Below, piece by piece: positions 1,310-17,444 of a stretch of DNA of 35,111 nucleotides; positions within the stretch are counted from its first letter, which is position 1, and every line of letters starts with the position of its first letter. Location of the stretch: IMG/VR virus record IMGVR_UViG_3300046751_001171, positions 1-35,111 of that record; one strand, 5' to 3'. The notes below the pieces were generated by a model. The model was not told the DNA's origin. It made no database searches and saw only the letters and a list, made by a program, of their open reading frames with translations. The translations under genes were made by a program, and so were the position numbers. This DNA comes from a virus.

Positions 1310-1573
1310 ATGTGCGGTAAGCGTTCGATTCTGGTTGATGGGCAGAAGCATTATTATGATCCGGAAGAGGGTCGCCAATATACTTTGGAAGAGATTGGTT
1401 CGGCGATGGGCGTTACCCGTGAGCGTGTTCGTCAGGTTGAAGAGATGGGCCTGCGTAAGATGTGGAGAGCTTTTGATTCGATGAGTCGCCGGGAGAATAT
1501 AACTCCTGATGAATGGATGCAGATACTAACCGATAGCCATGCCGGAGAAGACACAGTTTACATCCCTTCCTGA
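1310..1573 (+). CDS. Sigma-70 region-4-like helix-turn-helix protein
   Basis: An 87-residue product from ATG 1310. Residues 24-55 (YTLEEIGSAMGVTRERVRQV and the helix after it) are a textbook sigma-70 region 4 helix-turn-helix, the part that reads a -35 element. Regions 2 and 3 are missing, so it is not a full sigma factor; it could be an appropriator or a regulator that redirects host polymerase. The start is uncertain: the frame is open back to ATG 1079 or TTG 1067, which would add a Ser/Lys-rich segment, but that part is antiphase to the clearly coding zinc-ribbon gene. No good ribosome site precedes 1310. The 3' end overlaps the helicase start by 35 bases. Confidence 0.72.
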   Translation: MCGKRSILVDGQKHYYDPEEGRQYTLEEIGSAMGVTRERVRQVEEMGLRKMWRAFDSMSRRENITPDEWMQILTDSHAGEDTVYIPS

Positions 1574-2843
1574 TCTGTATGATTGGCAGAAGCCCCATGC
1601 TGAAAAGATTGGGGATGCGCTGATCAAATATGGCTATGCGAAGGATGGTAGTGATACCGGAACCGGTAAAACAATTGTGGCTATGAATGTGGCCAAAGAC
1701 CTACGACTTGAACCCTTCGTGGTATGTCCAAAGTCTGTTATTCCTGCATGGAAAGAATTTTGCCCTCATGTCTACAACTACGAAAAACTGGTGCGTGGAA
1801 AGACAGAATACTATACCCGTAAGGGATCGCAGAGATTTTGGACTCTGCATCCCGAGCGGGTGTTATTAATTTTTGATGAGGATCATAGATGTAAAGGATC
1901 CAAATCGGAGAATGCAAAGATGATGATTGCGGCTAAAAGGAGAGGGCTTCGTATCCTTCTTTTGGGAGCGACATCGTGTGCCAACCCGACAGATATGCGA
2001 GCCCTTGGTTATGTTTTAGATATGCATAATGATAATGGCTGGTGGGGTTGGTGTTTAAAGAATGGATGTAAGCGTGGAACCTTTGGAGGCTTGGAGTTTA
2101 AAGGAAGCAAGCCGGCATTGAAAAGGATTCATGATCACATCTATAAGAATGGCCGGGGGAGTAGAATAAGGATTAAGGATCTACCCCCCGGTTCGTTCCC
2201 TGAAACTACAATCTCTGCCCATGGATATGATGTCGGCTCAGCGGATGAGATTGATGATATTTATGAAGATCTACGGGTTCAGCTCGATGAATTAAAACAA
2301 AAGACAAGTGATGATGATAGTGCACTTGTCGCACAGATGCGGGCCCGGCAACAGGTAGAATTGTTAAAGGTTCCGGTATTTGAAGAATTGGCGCGGGATG
2401 CAGTAGTGGATGGAGCATCGGTCGTAATCTTCGTAAATTTTAGAGACACATTAGAGGCTCTGCTTAAACGGCTGGCTGGCTTGAGTGAAATCAGTGTAAT
2501 CTCAGGATCGCAATCAGGGGTGGTTCGCGAGCAGGAGATTAAACGATTTCAGCGTGATGAGTCCCGTATATGTCTGGCGATGACGCAGGCAGGCGGGACA
2601 GGGTTGAGTCTGCATGATGAGCACGGTGAGCATCCTCGCGTCTCTTTAATTTCGCCCAGCTTTAGCGCGATAGATTTGCGCCAGGCATTGGGTCGTATTC
2701 ATCGAGCATCCGGTTTATCCCCGAGCGTTCAGAAGATAGTCTTTGCTGAAGGGACGGTTGAGATGCGTGTCTGCAAGCTCGTCCGCAAAAAACTAAACAA
2801 CATCGATCTCATCAATGACGATGAGATGAATCCGATATTATGA
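1539..2843 (+). CDS. SNF2-type superfamily 2 DNA helicase
   Basis: A 434-residue ATPase of the phage SNF2/SF2 group. Visible motifs: Walker A in GSDTGTGKT (residues 37-45), motif Ia VCPKSV (62-67), motif II as DEDH (113-116) in the SNF2-like setting FDEDHRCKGSKS, motif III LLLGATS, and motif VI QALGRIHRASG (382-392). The length is at the short end for the family, so it is a core motor with little extra. It probably remodels DNA at replication forks or during recombination. The start lies inside the end of the HTH gene; tRNA genes follow six bases after the stop. The family call is secure, the exact role inferred. Confidence 0.93.
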   Translation: MPEKTQFTSLPDLYDWQKPHAEKIGDALIKYGYAKDGSDTGTGKTIVAMNVAKDLRLEPFVVCPKSVIPAWKEFCPHVYNYEKLVRGKTEYYTRKGSQRFWTLHPERVLLIFDEDHRCKGSKSENAKMMIAAKRRGLRILLLGATSCANPTDMRALGYVLDMHNDNGWWGWCLKNGCKRGTFGGLEFKGSKPALKRIHDHIYKNGRGSRIRIKDLPPGSFPETTISAHGYDVGSADEIDDIYEDLRVQLDELKQKTSDDDSALVAQMRARQQVELLKVPVFEELARDAVVDGASVVIFVNFRDTLEALLKRLAGLSEISVISGSQSGVVREQEIKRFQRDESRICLAMTQAGGTGLSLHDEHGEHPRVSLISPSFSAIDLRQALGRIHRASGLSPSVQKIVFAEGTVEMRVCKLVRKKLNNIDLINDDEMNPIL

Positions 2844-2848
2844 TATTT

Positions 2849-2924
2849 GGGGCCATAGCTCAGCTGGAAGAGCGCCTGATTTGCATTCAGGAGGTCGTCG
2901 GTTCGATCCCGTCTGGCTCCACCA
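2849..2924 (+). tRNA. tRNA-Ala (TGC)
   Basis: A 76-base cloverleaf ending in an encoded CCA. Acceptor arms GGGGCCA/TGGCTCC pair with one G-T; the anticodon stem CCTGA/TCAGG encloses TTTGCAT, giving anticodon TGC (Ala). The T loop is TTCGATC. The T stem GTCGG/CCGTC has one T-T mismatch. It lies in the plus-strand operon directly after the helicase gene, so it is probably cut from the early transcript. Confidence 0.96.
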
Positions 2925-2932
2925 TTTTTACT

Positions 2933-3008
<76 letters not shown>

Positions 3009-3731: not shown

Positions 3732-3891
3732 TGATTCCGACAGCGAGTATTCGGCTGAAATACAGGATGGGTGCACATTGGACGAAGTTGTTACCGAGCT
3801 TAAAGGTCTGCTTGTTTGCGTCGGCTTCAATCCGAAAAGCGTGGATGAACATTTAAATACCGGAGAGTGGGGGCTTGCTTCCGATGAGTAG
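3715..3891 (+). CDS. Small conserved-type phage protein (58 residues)
   Basis: A short gene starting at ATG 3715, behind a strong ribosome site (GGAGGAGGAG). It encodes MKITISDSDSEYSAEIQDGC, then TLDEVVTELKGLLVCVGFNP and a short acidic tail. The pattern of a beta strand, an acidic turn, then a helix with LL..xGF resembles small proteins often found beside phage replication genes, of unknown function. Its stop lies inside ATGAGTAG (3884-3891), which also contains the start of the nuclease N-terminal gene. Confidence 0.72.
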   Translation: MKITISDSDSEYSAEIQDGCTLDEVVTELKGLLVCVGFNPKSVDEHLNTGEWGLASDE

Positions 3892-4150
3892 TCCGGAACA
3901 GCATCACGAGCTCGGGCCGAGCACATTAAAATATGTGGAGATTTGTCCGGCATATCGCAGTAGTAATGAGACCAATATTTTTGCTGAGGAAGGAACCATG
4001 CTCCACAGCGCGGCTGAGACGGGGAATCTTGATGGTCTTGATGAGGAACAGATCAAGGCGGTTGTATCGTGCCTGGATTATTTAAAAGATATGGAATCCA
4101 ATGCGGATGAAGTGCACAAGGAATTGAGAGTCGAGATTCGTCATGGATAG
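3884..4150 (+). CDS. N-terminal piece of a RecB/Cas4-like nuclease (DUF2800-like)
   Basis: An 88-residue product matching the first part of phage PD-(D/E)XK nucleases of the DUF2800 / Cas4-RecB group. It has ICPAY, with Cys21 at the place of the first cysteine that binds an Fe-S cluster in this superfamily, and EEGTMLH, the RecB motif I (G37xxxH41). The catalytic D-x-K and the other three cysteines are missing; they lie in the gene at 4363-5208. The frame ends at TAG (4148-4150), just where family members continue into the GT-x-D strand. A separate 75-residue gene follows in the +1 frame. The domain call is good; whether the piece works with its partner is inference. Confidence 0.8.
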   Translation: MSSPEQHHELGPSTLKYVEICPAYRSSNETNIFAEEGTMLHSAAETGNLDGLDEEQIKAVVSCLDYLKDMESNADEVHKELRVEIRHG

Positions 4151-4370
4151 TGTAAAGGAAGGATCTATTCGTCAGAGCACTGACAACCCTCTGGCCTACG
4201 AGCTTCGGATGTTGACCAGCGGGGACAAGGTTATGGGTCGAGGAGTCATTAAGCGGGGTGACATGGTCTATATAAAAACTAATTTCGAGGATATTCCGAT
4301 CTATGCATTTAAAATGAACGGGAATCTCATGAAAGTATTACAGCAAAACCGTGGTGATTGGTATGAGTAA
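4143..4370 (+). CDS. Small gene inserted within the split nuclease
   Basis: A 75-residue frame lying exactly between the two nuclease pieces. It overlaps the first by 8 bases (ATGGATAG, 4143-4150) and the second by 8 (ATGAGTAA, 4363-4370). The protein looks beta-rich (VMGRGVIKRGDMVYIKT) with a basic-acidic mix and no HNH, GIY-YIG or LAGLIDADG signature, so it is not a recognisable homing endonuclease; inteins are excluded because the frames differ. No good ribosome site is present; coupling to the upstream stop is likely. It may be a mobile or co-opted insert, or a domain joined by +1 frameshifting. Function unknown. Confidence 0.62.
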   Translation: MDSVKEGSIRQSTDNPLAYELRMLTSGDKVMGRGVIKRGDMVYIKTNFEDIPIYAFKMNGNLMKVLQQNRGDWYE

Positions 4371-5208
4371 AACAATTTTTGGTACAGTAGATAGGGTTGT
4401 AATTAAGGGTACGCATGTCGATCTCGTCGATTTTAAGTTCGGGCGTGGCGAGATCGACGATGCAGAGATAAATATTCAGGGTCAGGCATATTTGCTTGGT
4501 GTGATGGATAAATTCCCTGAGCTCGAGACTGCGACTGTTCATTTTATAATACCTAGGCGTGATGAGGTATTGACTGCTGAATACAAACGGAAAGATATGG
4601 AAGGGATTCGTCTCCGCATCAATTTGATCGTTGAAAGAGCGATGGCGGAGAATGCGGAGACAATCCCTAACACCGAGGGGTGCCGGTACTGTAAGCATAA
4701 GCTTTCATGCCCTGCCCTATCGGATAAGCTTTTACCCTTGGCCAAAAAATATTCTCAGTCGGTTGATGATTTCGAGATGACACTTTGGGGTAGCTACTCT
4801 CCTGAAAAGGTTGAGGATCCCTTGGTTCTTGGAAAGATGCTCAATGTTGCACAGGTCATTGACCGATGGGCGGAAGCGGCCAAGAAGCAGGCAACCCATC
4901 TTGCGGTTGAAAAAGGTGAAGAGATCCCGGGATATGATTTAAATTTCCGTACGGTCACTCCGAAGATTGATAATGCACAGGATGCCTATGATGCGGTTGA
5001 ACATTTATTAACCCCGGAAGAATTCATGAGTGCATGCAGTGTCACGCCTGCCAAGATTGCGAAAGCTTATTCTGCCAAGCTTGAACGGGGTGAGAAAAAG
5101 AATGCCCGGGCAGCTACGGATGGGGCCTTGGAAGAGGCTGGGATTATTCTTTCAGAGGAGGAGCGTTCGATGACTCCATTTTTACGGAAGTCAAAAAATT
5201 TGAAGTGA
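4363..5208 (+). CDS. C-terminal catalytic piece of a RecB/Cas4-like nuclease
   Basis: A 281-residue product from ATG 4363 carrying the catalytic half of a PD-(D/E)XK nuclease. It starts at the GTVDRVV strand, followed by LVDFKFG (motif II/III, Asp23 and Lys25), then Q-G-Q-A-Y (Gln41, Tyr43; the RecB Q-x-x-Y-type helix) and a C-x2-C-x5-C cluster (Cys107, 110, 116). In Cas4/AddB relatives those three cysteines plus one N-terminal cysteine hold an [4Fe-4S] cluster; here the fourth is on the separate product of 3884-4150. A GTG at 4351 is in frame, but the ATG inside the 8-base overlap is the better start. Probable role: DNA end resection in recombination-dependent replication. Confidence 0.85.
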   Translation: MSKTIFGTVDRVVIKGTHVDLVDFKFGRGEIDDAEINIQGQAYLLGVMDKFPELETATVHFIIPRRDEVLTAEYKRKDMEGIRLRINLIVERAMAENAETIPNTEGCRYCKHKLSCPALSDKLLPLAKKYSQSVDDFEMTLWGSYSPEKVEDPLVLGKMLNVAQVIDRWAEAAKKQATHLAVEKGEEIPGYDLNFRTVTPKIDNAQDAYDAVEHLLTPEEFMSACSVTPAKIAKAYSAKLERGEKKNARAATDGALEEAGIILSEEERSMTPFLRKSKNLK

Positions 5209-5279: not shown

Positions 5280-6008
5280 ATGGCAAAATCATCATTATCA
5301 GAGTCAAAAAGTGAAGCAACCGCGGTAGTCGAAGCTACCGGAGATATAATCGAAGGCGCACCTACCGGTAGCCTTGCAGTGTCAACATCAGGAGCCGGCA
5401 TTACCGGAGATCTTGATGCATCCGATATCCAATTCCCAAAACTTGGGATCGCCCAGGGGGTAGGCCCATTGTCCGAGAACTTCCGTAAGGGAGCGATCGT
5501 GCTCGATGGTGAATTCGAGATTAGTGATGGAACGACCGAGGTTGAGTTCACTGTTTTGCGAATCGGAAAATTCTTTGAGGAGAATATTCCCTTCGGCGAG
5601 GGCGAGATTCCAAGAATCGTAACCCCGGCTGAACAGAAAGAAATCGGAGGTACCACCGTGGGACATCGTGATGATGCCGGTGGATGGGTACAGCCCGATT
5701 GGAAACCAATGGCGGATGCATTGATCTGCATCAAGGGAGGATCTCCCGATGAAGCATTTCCTTTTGAATACAACAAGGAAAAATATGCATTCGCGCTGTG
5801 GAGAATCAAAAGAACAGCATATGACAAAGGAGCAAAACCGATCTTTTCGGCTGGAGCTACCTATTATCGGAATGGCTTGAAGCACGGCAGCTTTACATTG
5901 ACGACTGAGAAATATCAGTTCGGAAGCAATGTCGTTCATGGGCCTAAGATCCGTAAGGGTAAGCTGCATGATGAGAAGTTCGTAAATTGGCTCAGCGAAT
6001 TTTGCTAA
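5280..6008 (+). CDS. Putative single-stranded DNA-binding protein
   Basis: A 242-residue soluble protein with a low-complexity N-terminus (residues 1-45, Ser/Glu/Ala/Gly) and a beta-rich core containing LRIGKFFEENIPFGEGEIPR, GGWVQPDWKPMADALICI and FALWRIKRTAYDKGAKPIF. The aromatic-rich core and its place between a recombination nuclease and PolA fit the ssDNA-binding-like proteins common at this position in phage replication clusters. It does not show a classical OB signature or the acidic C-terminal tail of bacterial SSB. A good ribosome site (AGACAGGAG) lies 11 bases before the ATG. A strong terminator follows at 6022-6084. Function is moderately supported by context only. Confidence 0.8.
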   Translation: MAKSSLSESKSEATAVVEATGDIIEGAPTGSLAVSTSGAGITGDLDASDIQFPKLGIAQGVGPLSENFRKGAIVLDGEFEISDGTTEVEFTVLRIGKFFEENIPFGEGEIPRIVTPAEQKEIGGTTVGHRDDAGGWVQPDWKPMADALICIKGGSPDEAFPFEYNKEKYAFALWRIKRTAYDKGAKPIFSAGATYYRNGLKHGSFTLTTEKYQFGSNVVHGPKIRKGKLHDEKFVNWLSEFC

Positions 6009-6106: not shown

Positions 6107-8002
6107 ATGGAAAAATTTGCAGCATTAGATTTTGAAACCTACTACTCTAAGACCTATTCGATTCAGGGTAGTAGTACATATCAGTATGTTAATCATCCTG
6201 AATTCGATGCCTATCTTGTAGCGATATGGAGCCCGGATCTTTCCTATGTTGGAAAGACATCAGATTTTAAAGATTGGAAAAAATTTGATGGGTATACCTT
6301 TATCGCGCACAACGCATCGTTCGATCAGCGATGCTTTGAGAAATGCGTTGAGCAAGGCATCATCCCTGACATCAAAGTAGATTGGATCTGTACCGCGGAT
6401 ATGTGCGTATATTTTCAGTATCAGCGGAATCTAAAGGGTTCAGCTAAGGAGATATTGAATGCAGACATGGACAAGGCTGTCCGTGAAAACATGAAGGACA
6501 AGACTTGGGAAGATATGATTGCGATGGATGAATCCAAGCAGGTTCTTGAGTACGCATTGGATGACGCGAAATATACTTATCAAATATTCCAAGAGCTCTA
6601 CGACCATTGGCCTGAGACCGAGCGGCTATTGTCCAGATTAACGCGGGCAATGTCATGGGAAGGATTACCTATCGATGTAAACAAGCTAGACGATGGGATT
6701 AATCGTTTGGAAGAAACTTTATTCCAGGCGAAGAAAGCATTGCCCTGGTATGGAGAGATCGATCCGGATACGAAAAAGGAATATGTAATATATTCGAAGA
6801 AAGCGATGGCGATAGAATGCCGGAAAGCAGGGGTTGAGCCTCCCAAGAGTCTCGCCAAGGACAGTCCAGCGCTAGCCGATTGGATTGCTGAGCATGGAGA
6901 CAAGCTGACCTTTGTATCAGCTATGCAGAATCATAATCGGATCAATATGCATTTACAGCGATTGAAATCGGTCAGGGATCGTCTGACCACCGAAGACAGA
7001 ATGTCATACAATCTGAAATATTTTGGTGCGGATGCCACCGGAAGATGGAGTGGGGATGCCGGTTTCAATGTTCAGAATATGCCTCGGGAGACGAAGTACG
7101 GGGTAAACATTCGAAATGTTATTACCGCACCTGAGGGTAAGACATTTATTGTCTCCGACCTTTCACAGATTGAGCCTAGGCTTACTGCCTTTATCGCAGG
7201 CGACATGGATTTCCTAAAATTGATAAAGCAGGGAATGAGTCCATATGAAGCGCATGCTCGACAGACGATGGGATGGACAGGCGGGAAATTGAAGGATGAG
7301 GATCCTGAGCTTTATCTTTTGGCTAAGGTTCGTGTTCTTCAGCTTGGGTACGGCTCCGGATGGCATAAGTTCGCAGAGACTGTTAAACAGTATGGTCAGC
7401 AACAAATTCTGGACATGGATTTCAGTCGTAAGGACGAAGTAAAATTCCAGAATTTTGCGAATACATATCAGCCGGGCAAAGGATCTATGTACCCTACCCT
7501 TTCGACCTACGACCGTAGACAATGGGTTAACGCCTACATTCAAGTCCAGGATTTTCGGGACAAGAACCCAAAGATCACACATCAATGGAAGAGTCTTGAT
7601 CGTCAATTAAAAGAGGCAGCGGGTGCGGGTGATGATTTTGATAATGAGATCCCGAGCGGTCGTCGTTTAAAATACTTCCGTTGTCGCCACGAGACTGACG
7701 GGGTAACAGTAGCTACACAAAAAGGTAGTGTCCGTCGGGTAAAGATGTACGGAGCTAATCTTTTTCAGAACAGTGTTCAGGCAACTGCCCGTGATTGCTT
7801 CGGTCATATACTTAAAAATCTGCATGAGCATGGATTCAAAGTTGTTCTTCATGTTCACGATGAAGTCGTCGTGGAAGTAGATGAGGAGAATGCCCTGCAT
7901 GCCAAGGCGGACATACAGGAATTGATGAAGCAAGGTCCCGAGTGGATGAAGGATGTACCGCTCGATTCAGAAGCAATTATAACCAAGGAGTACACGAAAT
8001 GA
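6107..8002 (+). CDS. Family A DNA polymerase with 3'-5' exonuclease
   Basis: A 631-residue replicative polymerase of the phage PolI type. The N-terminal DnaQ-like exonuclease is intact: Exo I DFET (Asp8, Glu10), Exo II AHNASFD (Asp73), Exo III YALDDAKYTYQ (Asp152/153, Tyr157). The polymerase domain has TGRWSG (311-316), motif A DLSQIEPR (351-358), motif B around AKVRVLQLGYGSG (406-418) and motif C HVHDE (583-586) with the two catalytic acids. There is no 5'-3' exonuclease domain, as usual for phage enzymes. The start follows the AACCACACACCA leader rather than a ribosome site. Its end overlaps the kinase gene as ATGA. Proofreading and polymerase sites all look functional. Confidence 0.97.
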   Translation: MEKFAALDFETYYSKTYSIQGSSTYQYVNHPEFDAYLVAIWSPDLSYVGKTSDFKDWKKFDGYTFIAHNASFDQRCFEKCVEQGIIPDIKVDWICTADMCVYFQYQRNLKGSAKEILNADMDKAVRENMKDKTWEDMIAMDESKQVLEYALDDAKYTYQIFQELYDHWPETERLLSRLTRAMSWEGLPIDVNKLDDGINRLEETLFQAKKALPWYGEIDPDTKKEYVIYSKKAMAIECRKAGVEPPKSLAKDSPALADWIAEHGDKLTFVSAMQNHNRINMHLQRLKSVRDRLTTEDRMSYNLKYFGADATGRWSGDAGFNVQNMPRETKYGVNIRNVITAPEGKTFIVSDLSQIEPRLTAFIAGDMDFLKLIKQGMSPYEAHARQTMGWTGGKLKDEDPELYLLAKVRVLQLGYGSGWHKFAETVKQYGQQQILDMDFSRKDEVKFQNFANTYQPGKGSMYPTLSTYDRRQWVNAYIQVQDFRDKNPKITHQWKSLDRQLKEAAGAGDDFDNEIPSGRRLKYFRCRHETDGVTVATQKGSVRRVKMYGANLFQNSVQATARDCFGHILKNLHEHGFKVVLHVHDEVVVEVDEENALHAKADIQELMKQGPEWMKDVPLDSEAIITKEYTK

Positions 8003-13964: not shown

Positions 13965-16900
13965 TTACTCATCCACATATAATTCAAAAGTTTCTCCATT
14001 CGAATGCTTAGCCGCCATACGATTAGCTCCTGGCGAATAAGGTCGTAGACCCACATAAATCCAATAAACCCCGGAATTGATTTCTACATATTTACCCGTT
14101 ACTCGACACGGATCTGTGTTATCGCTTTTCACAAAGCTCATATCAATAATAACCCCCCTCCTTATATTGATCCCCATATTTCCGGTAGCCAAATTCCTGA
14201 ATAACTCTATTGTTTGATTCCTGTTATAAAAACCGGGAGATGCTGCTCCTGTATAATCAGCAGAATATTCTCTCATACCGTCAGAATCTAAAGCTCCGGG
14301 TTTTAAAGCATGCCACATTTGATATATAGGCCCGGTGCCAGAGCCCGACCCAACTGTACTGTGATTCCAAGCAATCGAACGGCCGCCGTTCCACGGAACT
14401 GTCGTTGGCGAGGAGCCCCAGAAAATATTTGTATCACTGCTACCGGAGCCTTCATAAGATTCAGCCAGGGCCTCAGTATTGGGGAATGGGCCACCGTTTA
14501 AATGCACACCATTCCAGGGAGTCTGTGCGTGTTTAAATGGGTGTACATAAGTATAGAACAGCGTGTTGTTTAGATCGAAGTCGGCATTGGTTCCCGCGTC
14601 AATAAACTTAGTACCTGTCCATGACCAGCGCCAACGGTCATTTACAGGGCAAGAGAGCCCGGTATCCTCTGCTTCAACATTAAGATTTGTTATAATCCCG
14701 GGCACTACAATTTCAGGTTCAGGAGCCGCCGTAGTTGTAACCGATACCACATTCGAGTACTCCGAATCTCGCCAACTGGTTTCGGGCCAACTAATATGCG
14801 CTTTAACTTTAAAGAAGTAGGTCGTGCCAGAAGCAAGCCCTCGATATACAAACTCTCTGATGTTACTTGGGGTAGTTGAAAAATCGCGATCAGTCGTAAA
14901 ATCGCTGCTGGTAGATCGTTGTACAGTATAAACCTCAGCCATAGGCACCTCAGTATAACTGACTTTTATTGACTCCTTATCGGAGTCGTTAATCGCCGGC
15001 ACCTGAACTGCCGAGATTACGGGTGCATCGAGCTGATCAAGAGATTCTGTCGTGTAACTCACAACCTCAGACCATTCCGAATCAAAATAATTATCAGCCT
15101 TTGCCTTAACACGAGCCCAGTAAGTTGTTGAGCTCATCTGGTTAATAAAAACAGCCACATTGGAATCTCCTTCAACGGTTTGCACGAAACCTGAGAAGTC
15201 TTCAGTCGTACTCACTTCTCTTACATAGCTCGTAGCATTCGGAACCTCGTCGACTCTTACAGTGAACTCGCGCGTAGAGTCAGTATTACCCATATTTGGG
15301 TTAAAGGTGACCGTTAAATTATCGGGGTTAGCCAGCCAAGATTTTTCTTTTGTGAATGAAATTTCCGCCCATTCAGAGTCAAAGTATTTTGAAGAGCTAC
15401 TCTCAAACCGAGCACGGAAGTGGTAAGTTGTTCCGATATTTACATTTATTAAAAGATTAGAAAATCCGGTGCTATTGACGAAAGGATTACTAAAATCTGC
15501 GTTTTCTGATACTTGTAGACGAGTAATGTAAAGATCATGCTCTGCACCGGGATTGACGAATTCTTTATCAAATTCTGTCGCTGAGTAGAAGAAGCTAATT
15601 TCATCGGGCGGGTCGTCAGAATTTCCGACTACTATTTCCGGAGGTATTAACTCTACGGGTATTGCAAAGTTGGTAACTAAACCGGGTAAAGCAGGCTTAG
15701 CATCAAGAGTTGATACCACTCCGACGGAATCCGGTGCAGTATTAAAACTACTCACTTGGCCGGGTAAAGCAGGTTTAGCGTCAAAATTAGAGACCTCGCC
15801 TGGTCTTGCTTCGGTGCTTAAATTAGATACCAAACCGGGAAGTTCAGGTTTCGCATCCAGATTTGATACGACCCCAACAGTTTCAGAAACTACATTGAAA
15901 GTACTTACGATTCCGGGTAACTCCGGTGTAGCATCCAGATTTGATACTACACCAACAGTTCCAGAAACTGCATTGAAATTACTTACGATCCCGGGTAACT
16001 CCGGTGTAGCATCCAGATTTGATACTACTCCGGGTTTCATTTCCGTAACAAAATTAGATACGACGCCAGGAAGCTCCGGTAATGCGTCAAAATCGGAAAC
16101 ATTTCCAGGTAGTGCGGGCGTAGCGCTAAAATCACTGGTGGTTCCAGGCATTTCCGGCACCGCATCTAAATTATCTATTAAACCAGCGATATCGGGAAGT
16201 GCTGCAAAATTTCCTACCGCGCCCGCTAGTTCCGGATTTGCAGCAAAATCTGCCACCACCCCTGGTACAGTAACAACCTCAAAATTAGTAACGAGCCCGG
16301 GTATTTCAGGTCTAGCGTCTAACCTTGAAACAACCGAAGGGATATCATTCTCAATACTTTTTAAGTATTCCGGAGAAATAACATAGAACCAGTACATACC
16401 GGACTGAGGATCATAGGTTGCGAAAGCTTCCCGAAGATCGATCGGTAACTCTTTCTCCCAAAGACCTTTGGCCTTCCAACTCGCCTGATCAGGATCAGCC
16501 TGCGATTTTTTATCCTCCGCCCCACGGGTTGCGGATTCATCCTTGTAGACCTGACCATCGTGCCCGAGCCAATAGCTCATCGTCCCACTCTCTCCACCCA
16601 CGACCTGAGGATTTACGGCGGCGGAAAAATTGGTTGCGGGTGCCTGTTCAACACGGTAGCCGGTTTCCGCCTGATCCGAGGATGGTGCATATAGAACATG
16701 GCACCCTTTGTCGGTATGTACTACTACCTGATCACCACGGGTGGAAAGTGCGGTAATTACACTAGCATTTGATCCAAGAATATCGACCGTCGACATAGAG
16801 CCGGCGTTTTCGTTTGTATCGCTTGTCGAATACGGGGTATCTCTATAGGGGCTGGTTTTACCGGCAGGCTCGGATATGTAGATTGTTAGTGGTTTAGCGG

Positions 16901-17444
16901 GATTCCCTGATGCAAAAATTGTTTTTTTAGGTCCTTGAACAAAGAACTTACAGTCCGGAAACCTTGACCATTCGTAACTGTAAAGACTCTCGTCAGGGAA
17001 GACTGATGCCTCTGCGGCCGGAGGACCTTTTCCTATAAAGACTGCTTCTCCATCGCCATCTCCAAAGGAGAATAAACGATTACCTACAGGACTAATAACA
17101 GCTCGTTCATTTCGATAAATATCGAGCGGATCAACCACTGAATATGTGGATACAAAAAAGGACACTTCTACATGCTCAGCGGTACTGAGCATCATATCAT
17201 GAACCTCACCCATTCTTGATACAAACAGAGCGGAATTTCCATTCCCATCGTCCGATGCCGTTAACTCATTTTCAAGATTGTCAGAAACCATACCAACGGA
17301 CCCGGCATCTTGCCACACAGGACCGGAACGCAGGCCGCCCGACCCAAACGGCAAACAACCTTCGACTACACGAAGAGAGCCGCGATCGGCGTCATCGCGA
17401 TGCGTCTCGATCCCGGTGAAGGATGGTATCCGGAAAAACCTCAC
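13965..17444 (-). CDS. Large tail protein with 13-residue repeats and three FN3 domains
   Basis: An 1159-residue virion protein, starting with GTG (17444) that overlaps the small upstream gene by four bases. The N-terminal third (1 to about 365) is beta-rich and recalls tail-hub or stabilisation proteins (RGSLRVVEGCLPFGSGGL; VVHTDKGCHVLYAPSS). Residues about 370-595 are some sixteen copies of a 13-residue unit like GVVSNLDATPELP. Then come three FN3-like domains (about 600-915; TTYHFRARF, TTYWARVKAKAD, TTYFFKVKAH) and a C-terminal 240-residue domain rich in Trp, Gly and Asn, probably carbohydrate-binding. The layout, anchor then flexible stalk then adhesion domains, suggests a receptor-binding tail protein. 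Confidence 0.9.
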   Translation of the reverse strand: MRFFRIPSFTGIETHRDDADRGSLRVVEGCLPFGSGGLRSGPVWQDAGSVGMVSDNLENELTASDDGNGNSALFVSRMGEVHDMMLSTAEHVEVSFFVSTYSVVDPLDIYRNERAVISPVGNRLFSFGDGDGEAVFIGKGPPAAEASVFPDESLYSYEWSRFPDCKFFVQGPKKTIFASGNPAKPLTIYISEPAGKTSPYRDTPYSTSDTNENAGSMSTVDILGSNASVITALSTRGDQVVVHTDKGCHVLYAPSSDQAETGYRVEQAPATNFSAAVNPQVVGGESGTMSYWLGHDGQVYKDESATRGAEDKKSQADPDQASWKAKGLWEKELPIDLREAFATYDPQSGMYWFYVISPEYLKSIENDIPSVVSRLDARPEIPGLVTNFEVVTVPGVVADFAANPELAGAVGNFAALPDIAGLIDNLDAVPEMPGTTSDFSATPALPGNVSDFDALPELPGVVSNFVTEMKPGVVSNLDATPELPGIVSNFNAVSGTVGVVSNLDATPELPGIVSTFNVVSETVGVVSNLDAKPELPGLVSNLSTEARPGEVSNFDAKPALPGQVSSFNTAPDSVGVVSTLDAKPALPGLVTNFAIPVELIPPEIVVGNSDDPPDEISFFYSATEFDKEFVNPGAEHDLYITRLQVSENADFSNPFVNSTGFSNLLINVNIGTTYHFRARFESSSSKYFDSEWAEISFTKEKSWLANPDNLTVTFNPNMGNTDSTREFTVRVDEVPNATSYVREVSTTEDFSGFVQTVEGDSNVAVFINQMSSTTYWARVKAKADNYFDSEWSEVVSYTTESLDQLDAPVISAVQVPAINDSDKESIKVSYTEVPMAEVYTVQRSTSSDFTTDRDFSTTPSNIREFVYRGLASGTTYFFKVKAHISWPETSWRDSEYSNVVSVTTTAAPEPEIVVPGIITNLNVEAEDTGLSCPVNDRWRWSWTGTKFIDAGTNADFDLNNTLFYTYVHPFKHAQTPWNGVHLNGGPFPNTEALAESYEGSGSSDTNIFWGSSPTTVPWNGGRSIAWNHSTVGSGSGTGPIYQMWHALKPGALDSDGMREYSADYTGAASPGFYNRNQTIELFRNLATGNMGINIRRGVIIDMSFVKSDNTDPCRVTGKYVEINSGVYWIYVGLRPYSPGANRMAAKHSNGETFELYVDE
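15660..16335 (-). repeat. Tandem 39-base (13-codon) repeat array
   Basis: About sixteen in-frame units encoding G-[VIL]-V-[ST]-[ND]-[LF]-x-A-x-P-x-[LM]-P. Two adjacent 78-base blocks (about 15868-16020) are nearly identical in DNA, indicating recent duplication of a two-unit block. Length variation between strains is expected. Confidence 0.85.

Follow-up and report, generated by a model that had tools for sequence, protein, structure and literature searches.

A DUF2800 phage exonuclease encoded in two parts around a small conserved gene and probably acting as a heteromer

In the stretch of DNA analysed here, a virus record of 35,111 bases (the window), the gene for a DUF2800 / RecB-Cas4-like PD-(D/E)XK exonuclease is divided into a first part, N, and a remaining part, C, with a small gene, S, between them. 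The same arrangement recurs throughout a group of uncultivated phages. We consider it likely, with a probability of roughly 0.8, that the two separately translated chains make up one functional DUF2800 recombination/replication exonuclease. According to this explanation, the motif-I helix (G37xxxH41, E45) and the core strand beta1 would come from N, along with the first of the four staple cysteines. C would provide the remaining three cysteines, the metal-binding Asp-x-Lys, the helix with the Q/Y residues and the strands from beta2 on. The chains would assemble non-covalently through strand pairing in the beta1-beta2 hairpin and through a common four-cysteine metal site. The stop and start codons of neighbouring genes overlap, and this, together with a ribosome-binding site before C, would lead to co-translation of the three genes and favour this assembly. 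The split would have arisen in the ancestor of the clade once S came to sit in the hairpin turn, where it would have been kept under purifying selection; in the lineage of one relative, L134, N and C would later have been re-fused and S lost. The analysis shows how the genes are arranged, their conservation and selection, the phylogeny and where the break falls; from there on, assembly, the metal cluster, enzyme activity and the part played by S are inferred.

Gene layout and identity of the nuclease

All three genes are located on the plus strand of the window. N (positions 3884-4150, 88 aa) was recognised as an open reading frame with nuclease motifs and profile matches, S (4143-4370, 75 aa) is the open reading frame between N and C, and C (4363-5208, 281 aa) was assigned by its reading frame, its motifs and the DUF2800 profile. 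Neighbouring genes overlap by 8 bases on this strand: at 4143-4150 the ATG of S lies within the final codons of N (CATGGATAG), and at 4363-4370 the ATG of C lies within those of S. An earlier note on this DNA had given the same coordinates and overlaps. N carries Cys21, motif I (G37xxxH41), E45 and strand beta1 (KELRVEI), and its C-terminus reads RHG followed by the stop codon. C carries FGTVD, VDFK with the Asp-x-Lys pair (D23xK25), QGQAY (Q39/Q41/Y43), Cys107, Cys110 and Cys116, and the C-terminal domain.

DUF2800 is a recognised PD-(D/E)XK nuclease within a duf2800-gp2.5-polA module (PMC8093625). In the window, a gene for a 242-aa protein 3' of the nuclease (5280-6008, plus strand), kept in all clades, occupies the Gp2.5/DUF2815 place of this module and is followed by a family A DNA polymerase gene (6107-8002, plus strand). 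The 242-aa protein had no DUF2815 match and matched no known family in Pfam or PHROGs; it is a candidate ssDNA-binding or annealing protein. Upstream lies an SNF2/DEAD-like helicase gene (1539-2843, plus strand); in a sister clade it forms a fusion with the nuclease or with the N-part. Two tRNA genes (2849-3005) are situated right behind the helicase gene, ahead of small genes upstream of N. On the minus strand, positions 13965-17444 encode a 1159-aa protein with many PELPGxVSNFxA-type repeats that is probably structural or tail-associated.

C matched Pfam DUF2800 at 1.2e-21 and 77.7 bits (cut-off 21), starting at profile position 116, and N gave a weak match to positions 25-78 of the profile. 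Against the PHROG exonuclease profile phrog_69, N alone scored 15.7 bits and C alone 108.6 bits, while the joined N+C sequence scored 127.6 bits (1.4e-36) in a single continuous stretch, 95-435, slightly more than the sum of the separate scores. The natural single-chain relative L134 scored 150.3 bits. In alignments, the Gly/His/Glu residues of motif I, the Asp-x-Lys pair and the Q/Y residues are invariant and spread over two chains. Across the split rows, little or no variation is seen at Cys21, Gly37, His41 and Glu45 of N or, in C, at the Asp, Asp-x-Lys, Gln/Tyr and CxxCx5C positions. The iron-staple pattern of one N-terminal and three C-terminal cysteines is likewise present, with C21 in N and C107/C110/C116 in C. 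The window shares domain, motifs and the place upstream of polA with members of the DUF2800 / phrog_69 family such as BPP-1 Bbp38 and phiFL4A gp15, and N and C together cover the profile end to end. In contrast to the annotated members compared, which are single ORFs, it encodes two chains with a third gene between them; a single polypeptide is found in L134 and in the group of L061. These data bear out the claim of the earlier note that a formerly single nuclease of the DUF2800/Cas4 group now exists as two pieces on either side of a small gene, the active site and the four metal-staple cysteines being divided between N and C: both pieces and their fusion match DUF2800/phrog_69, intact homologues exist (L134, the L061 group, BPP-1 and phiFL4A), and the residues at the verified motif positions are kept in relatives.

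The intact DUF2800 exonuclease gp15 of Enterococcus phage phiFL4A (L164, 2141-3313) has kept the N-terminal cysteine and lost the three C-terminal ones, so that not every DUF2800 member has the metal staple.

Distribution, break position and selection

IMG/VR was searched with C, S and profiles of both, and every junction was read. The order N, S, C was found in 41 records including the window, with C identities to the window's C from 100% down to 45% (L079). This recurrence goes far beyond chance and excludes an assembly error, which the earlier note had raised as a danger to its reading, and the presence of the split in relatives with a C only 45% identical indicates that it is old. A Rickettsiales MAG contig (L161), the sole locus from a genome-collection scan, has the N-S-C arrangement too and may be phage. 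A limited literature search turned up no description of a DUF2800 nuclease in split form.

The ATG of S overlaps the stop codon of N in 28 of 29 non-redundant loci, the overlap between S and C measures 4-59 bases, and the distance from the N stop to the C start is 101-215 nt. Stop codons at both junctions vary between TAA, TAG and TGA. Relative to N, C lies in frame +2 in 36 of 37 loci; in the exception, L055, N and C are in the same frame. The earlier note had proposed insertion of 215 bases flanked by GG/GG. Excising 4147-4361 from the window does restore the reading RHG-MSK, but GG/GG is a 2-base match, and the relatives differ in their junctions, in insert length and in the N-terminus of C. 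With 101-215 nt between N stop and C start among relatives, an exact 215-base excision between GG repeats was rejected. In L042, L045, L051, L052, L053, L055 and L056, C starts with an extra ~6-12 N-terminal residues, helix-like in sequence, which look as if the broken end had been remodelled.

The AlphaFold2 model of the intact L134 nuclease is of moderate confidence (pLDDT 72, pTM 0.48), and of low confidence at residues 1-25, where Cys21 lies. Strand beta1 was modelled at 76-87 and strand beta2 at 93-104, which places the focal break in the beta1-beta2 turn. Using Foldseek and VIA-align, the model matched the nucleases AdnA, AddAB, RecB, Cas4 and MGME1 (E down to 1e-4, Z about 9-11), and the matched region spans residues of both the N and the C half; C would thus be completed by N, which would bring in the motif-I helix and one core-sheet strand. 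In Cas4, AddB, RecB and MGME1, a single chain carries motif I, the metal site and the full set of four cysteines, whereas in the window these are distributed over two. The N-terminal cysteine plus CxxCx5C staple pattern of Cas4 and AddB is likewise present in N and C together. On this same four-cysteine pattern, Cas4 and AddB hold an iron-sulfur cluster and DUF3799 holds zinc (PMC3466216), and by analogy the metal of the split enzyme could be [4Fe-4S] or zinc, as in DUF3799. Judging from the conservation of the cysteines, this site would bridge N and C.

Median pairwise dN/dS, computed with the overlaps left out, was 0.065 for N, 0.13 for S and 0.05 for C, and all three genes are under purifying selection. 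C starts with ATG in all 29 loci checked, and in 21 of these the start is preceded by an SD-like stretch of at least 4 bases, compared to 12% at internal Met codons. At the C start of the window only GGTGA and no strong SD is present, so that coupling of C to S is likely there. Taken together, the dN/dS values, the conserved residues and the start signals of C itself speak against a dead enzyme and against a frameshift fusion. Of the three outcomes that the earlier note had offered, these two are thus disfavoured, and the heteromer is favoured.

Breaking up its core sheet would normally inactivate an enzyme, and the pieces could then be decaying or have been reused otherwise. Given the low medians for N and C and the invariance of the motif-I Gly/His/Glu, the Asp-x-Lys pair and the four cysteines across the split lineages, we regard such a loss of function as highly improbable. 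It also appears very unlikely that two +1 frameshifts, or a translational bypass of the insert like that of T4 gene 60, fuse the three frames into a single product. The +2 offset in 36 of 37 loci would suit such a fusion, and in the window N ends with GGA-TAG, a sequence also present at the take-off site of T4 gene 60. However, the constant offset results from inherited overlaps plus whole-codon indels, and the shared frame of N and C in L055, the variable stop codons and the variable gap (101-215 nt) argue against joining, as do the own ATG of C everywhere and its SD in 21 of 29 loci. Moreover, S is conserved as a protein and is therefore not a skipped spacer. We give next to no credence to a self-splicing intron or split intein, by which the insert would be removed from the RNA or the chains would be ligated. 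The insert does sit within a conserved gene, and phages are known to carry introns and split inteins that come with homing endonucleases, but a search of the window for Rfam introns found nothing at E-values up to 10 around the site. In addition, insert length varies, S is selected at the protein level, and the end of N and the start of C are only a few residues from the conserved core, too close for intein halves to fit in.

The small protein S

S is about 60-80 aa long and combines a variable N-terminus with a conserved core, IPIYAFKM...L..L....W. AlphaFold2 gave a confident core (ten-residue blocks at 89-94) with five strands and a C-terminal helix, and S is accordingly predicted to be a small five-strand beta-barrel plus C-terminal helix. 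The model resembles small barrels of the Hfq/Sm, SH3 and Tudor types, none of them at a significant level (best Foldseek E 0.18, VIA Z 4.1). No family match was obtained in Pfam or PHROGs, where homing-endonuclease families gave no match either, no credible match among PDB sequences, and no match in annotated phage records. Matches to designed repeat proteins were rejected; they were summed over repeats, and no single stretch was significant. All 32 loci found with the S profile are on contigs in which the split nuclease had been identified before, and none is elsewhere. Distances between S sequences follow the phage backbone (Mantel rho 0.49, p 0.001). A different contig of the Rickettsiales MAG (L172) gave a weak match (E 4e-4) that covers only the start of S, EGxIRQSTDNP, in an 82-aa frame elsewhere; this motif may be older than S.

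With odds slightly better than even, we think that S is a small binding subunit of the nuclease complex: it occupies a fixed place in every split member of the clade, is under purifying selection, is found nowhere outside the split gene and has no match to a homing-endonuclease family. These observations weigh against S being an unrelated passenger, a mobile-gene relic or moron in a permissive turn of a nuclease that is a plain N+C dimer. To that account we give a chance just short of even: a sister clade splits the gene at a nearby site around changing, unrelated cargo, S evolves faster than N and C, L134 lacks S, and selfish insertion is a known cause of such splits (PMC2988022). A bolder version of the subunit reading is possible but doubtful. 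The nuclease would then consist of three subunits: a core beta strand and motif I would be supplied in trans, two chains would share the metal cluster, and S, a small beta-barrel protein that began as an insert, would have become an obligate assembly or control subunit, dispensable only upon re-fusion. In these phages, the hairpin region would then be prone to repeated fission, having been used twice independently.

Intact relatives, a second split and known genes in pieces

The earlier note had proposed a search for relatives with and without the insert, and both were found: 41 split records including the window on the one hand, and intact L134 on the other. Four states of the locus were distinguished, all with the order helicase, nuclease, 242-aa gene, PolA and primase-like gene. 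In the first, L134 carries an intact nuclease in the gene order of the split clade, and S is present nowhere in its 54-kb record. In the second (L061-L065, L070, L071, L073, L077), the SNF2-like helicase and the DUF2800 nuclease form one ORF of 819 aa or more (L061, 2363-4822). The third is the focal N-S-C arrangement. In the fourth (L066-L069, L072, L074-L076, L078), the helicase is fused to the N-part, followed by one to four unrelated small genes and then by a C-part starting with MTTIAKDLREIRVKIDLG or similar. This cargo encodes an HTH protein, a C4 zinc-finger-like VTEPRDF protein and coiled coils. It spans 3320-3944 in L066, 3252-3944 in L074, 2937-3944 in L075, 3024-3944 in L078 and 3158-3944 in L072; the gap is a gene-acquisition hot spot inside the split gene. 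The break lies before strand beta1 in the fourth state and after it in the focal arrangement, and on the backbone tree (PolA, 242-aa protein and helicase; 1306 columns) the fourth state is one clade adjoining the second (100/99). The different break sites and this position in the tree indicate that the two fissions are independent.

On the backbone tree, L134 pairs with L139 (contig of L059) at 100/100, nested in the split clade, and a topology holding the split rows together without L134 was rejected (p-AU 0.001). The C-part tree gave L134 the same neighbours (93/93). The N+C nuclease tree is poorly resolved there, and a placement of L134 outside the split clade was not rejected with it (p-AU 0.056). 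The simplest history is probably one split in the ancestor of the clade, with later re-fusion and loss of S in L134. Alternatively, L134 could have taken over an intact gene through recombination with a lineage lacking the split, or homing of S could have produced the split several times. The N+C nuclease alignment allows the split rows as one clade without L134, but the C-part and backbone trees agree on its neighbours and S distances track the backbone; we therefore consider this alternative unlikely.

Genes in pieces caused by homing endonucleases include Aeh1 NrdA, the phage 25 DNA polymerase and the T4 topoisomerase (PMC2988022). The split Aeh1 NrdA is fully functional, and the pieces of the phage 25 polymerase co-purify with activity (PMC2988022), a precedent for an N+C heteromer. 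As in Aeh1 NrdA (mobE insertion) and phage 25 43A/43B, a conserved phage replication enzyme is in pieces around an inserted gene, and reassembly is expected. The insert of the window differs in being a conserved non-endonuclease gene of 60-80 aa kept over a deep clade, and the DUF2800 nuclease shows a second, independent split and a probable re-fusion. In T4 topoisomerase gp39/gp60 (mobA-associated), too, a mobile gene has split an enzyme subunit, which has stayed functional (PMC2988022); in the window, however, it is the catalytic beta sheet that is interrupted, and the gene in between does not code for a homing endonuclease. As for the class as a whole, an intact relative with the same gene order exists (L134), and the inserted gene is without homing-endonuclease identity.

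Split phage enzymes have so far been described as isolated cases due to selfish endonucleases. Here, a single nuclease is seen at one locus in four states: as an intact gene, as a fusion with the helicase, in two parts with a conserved small gene between them, and in two parts that enclose changing cargo, one of them being fused to the helicase. Gene callers will label such nucleases truncated, and annotations should be read with this in mind. With two independent fissions and one probable re-fusion, the question of how an enzyme withstands a cut within its catalytic sheet can be put to a direct test, and the same locus allows one to test whether an inserted gene turns into a subunit.
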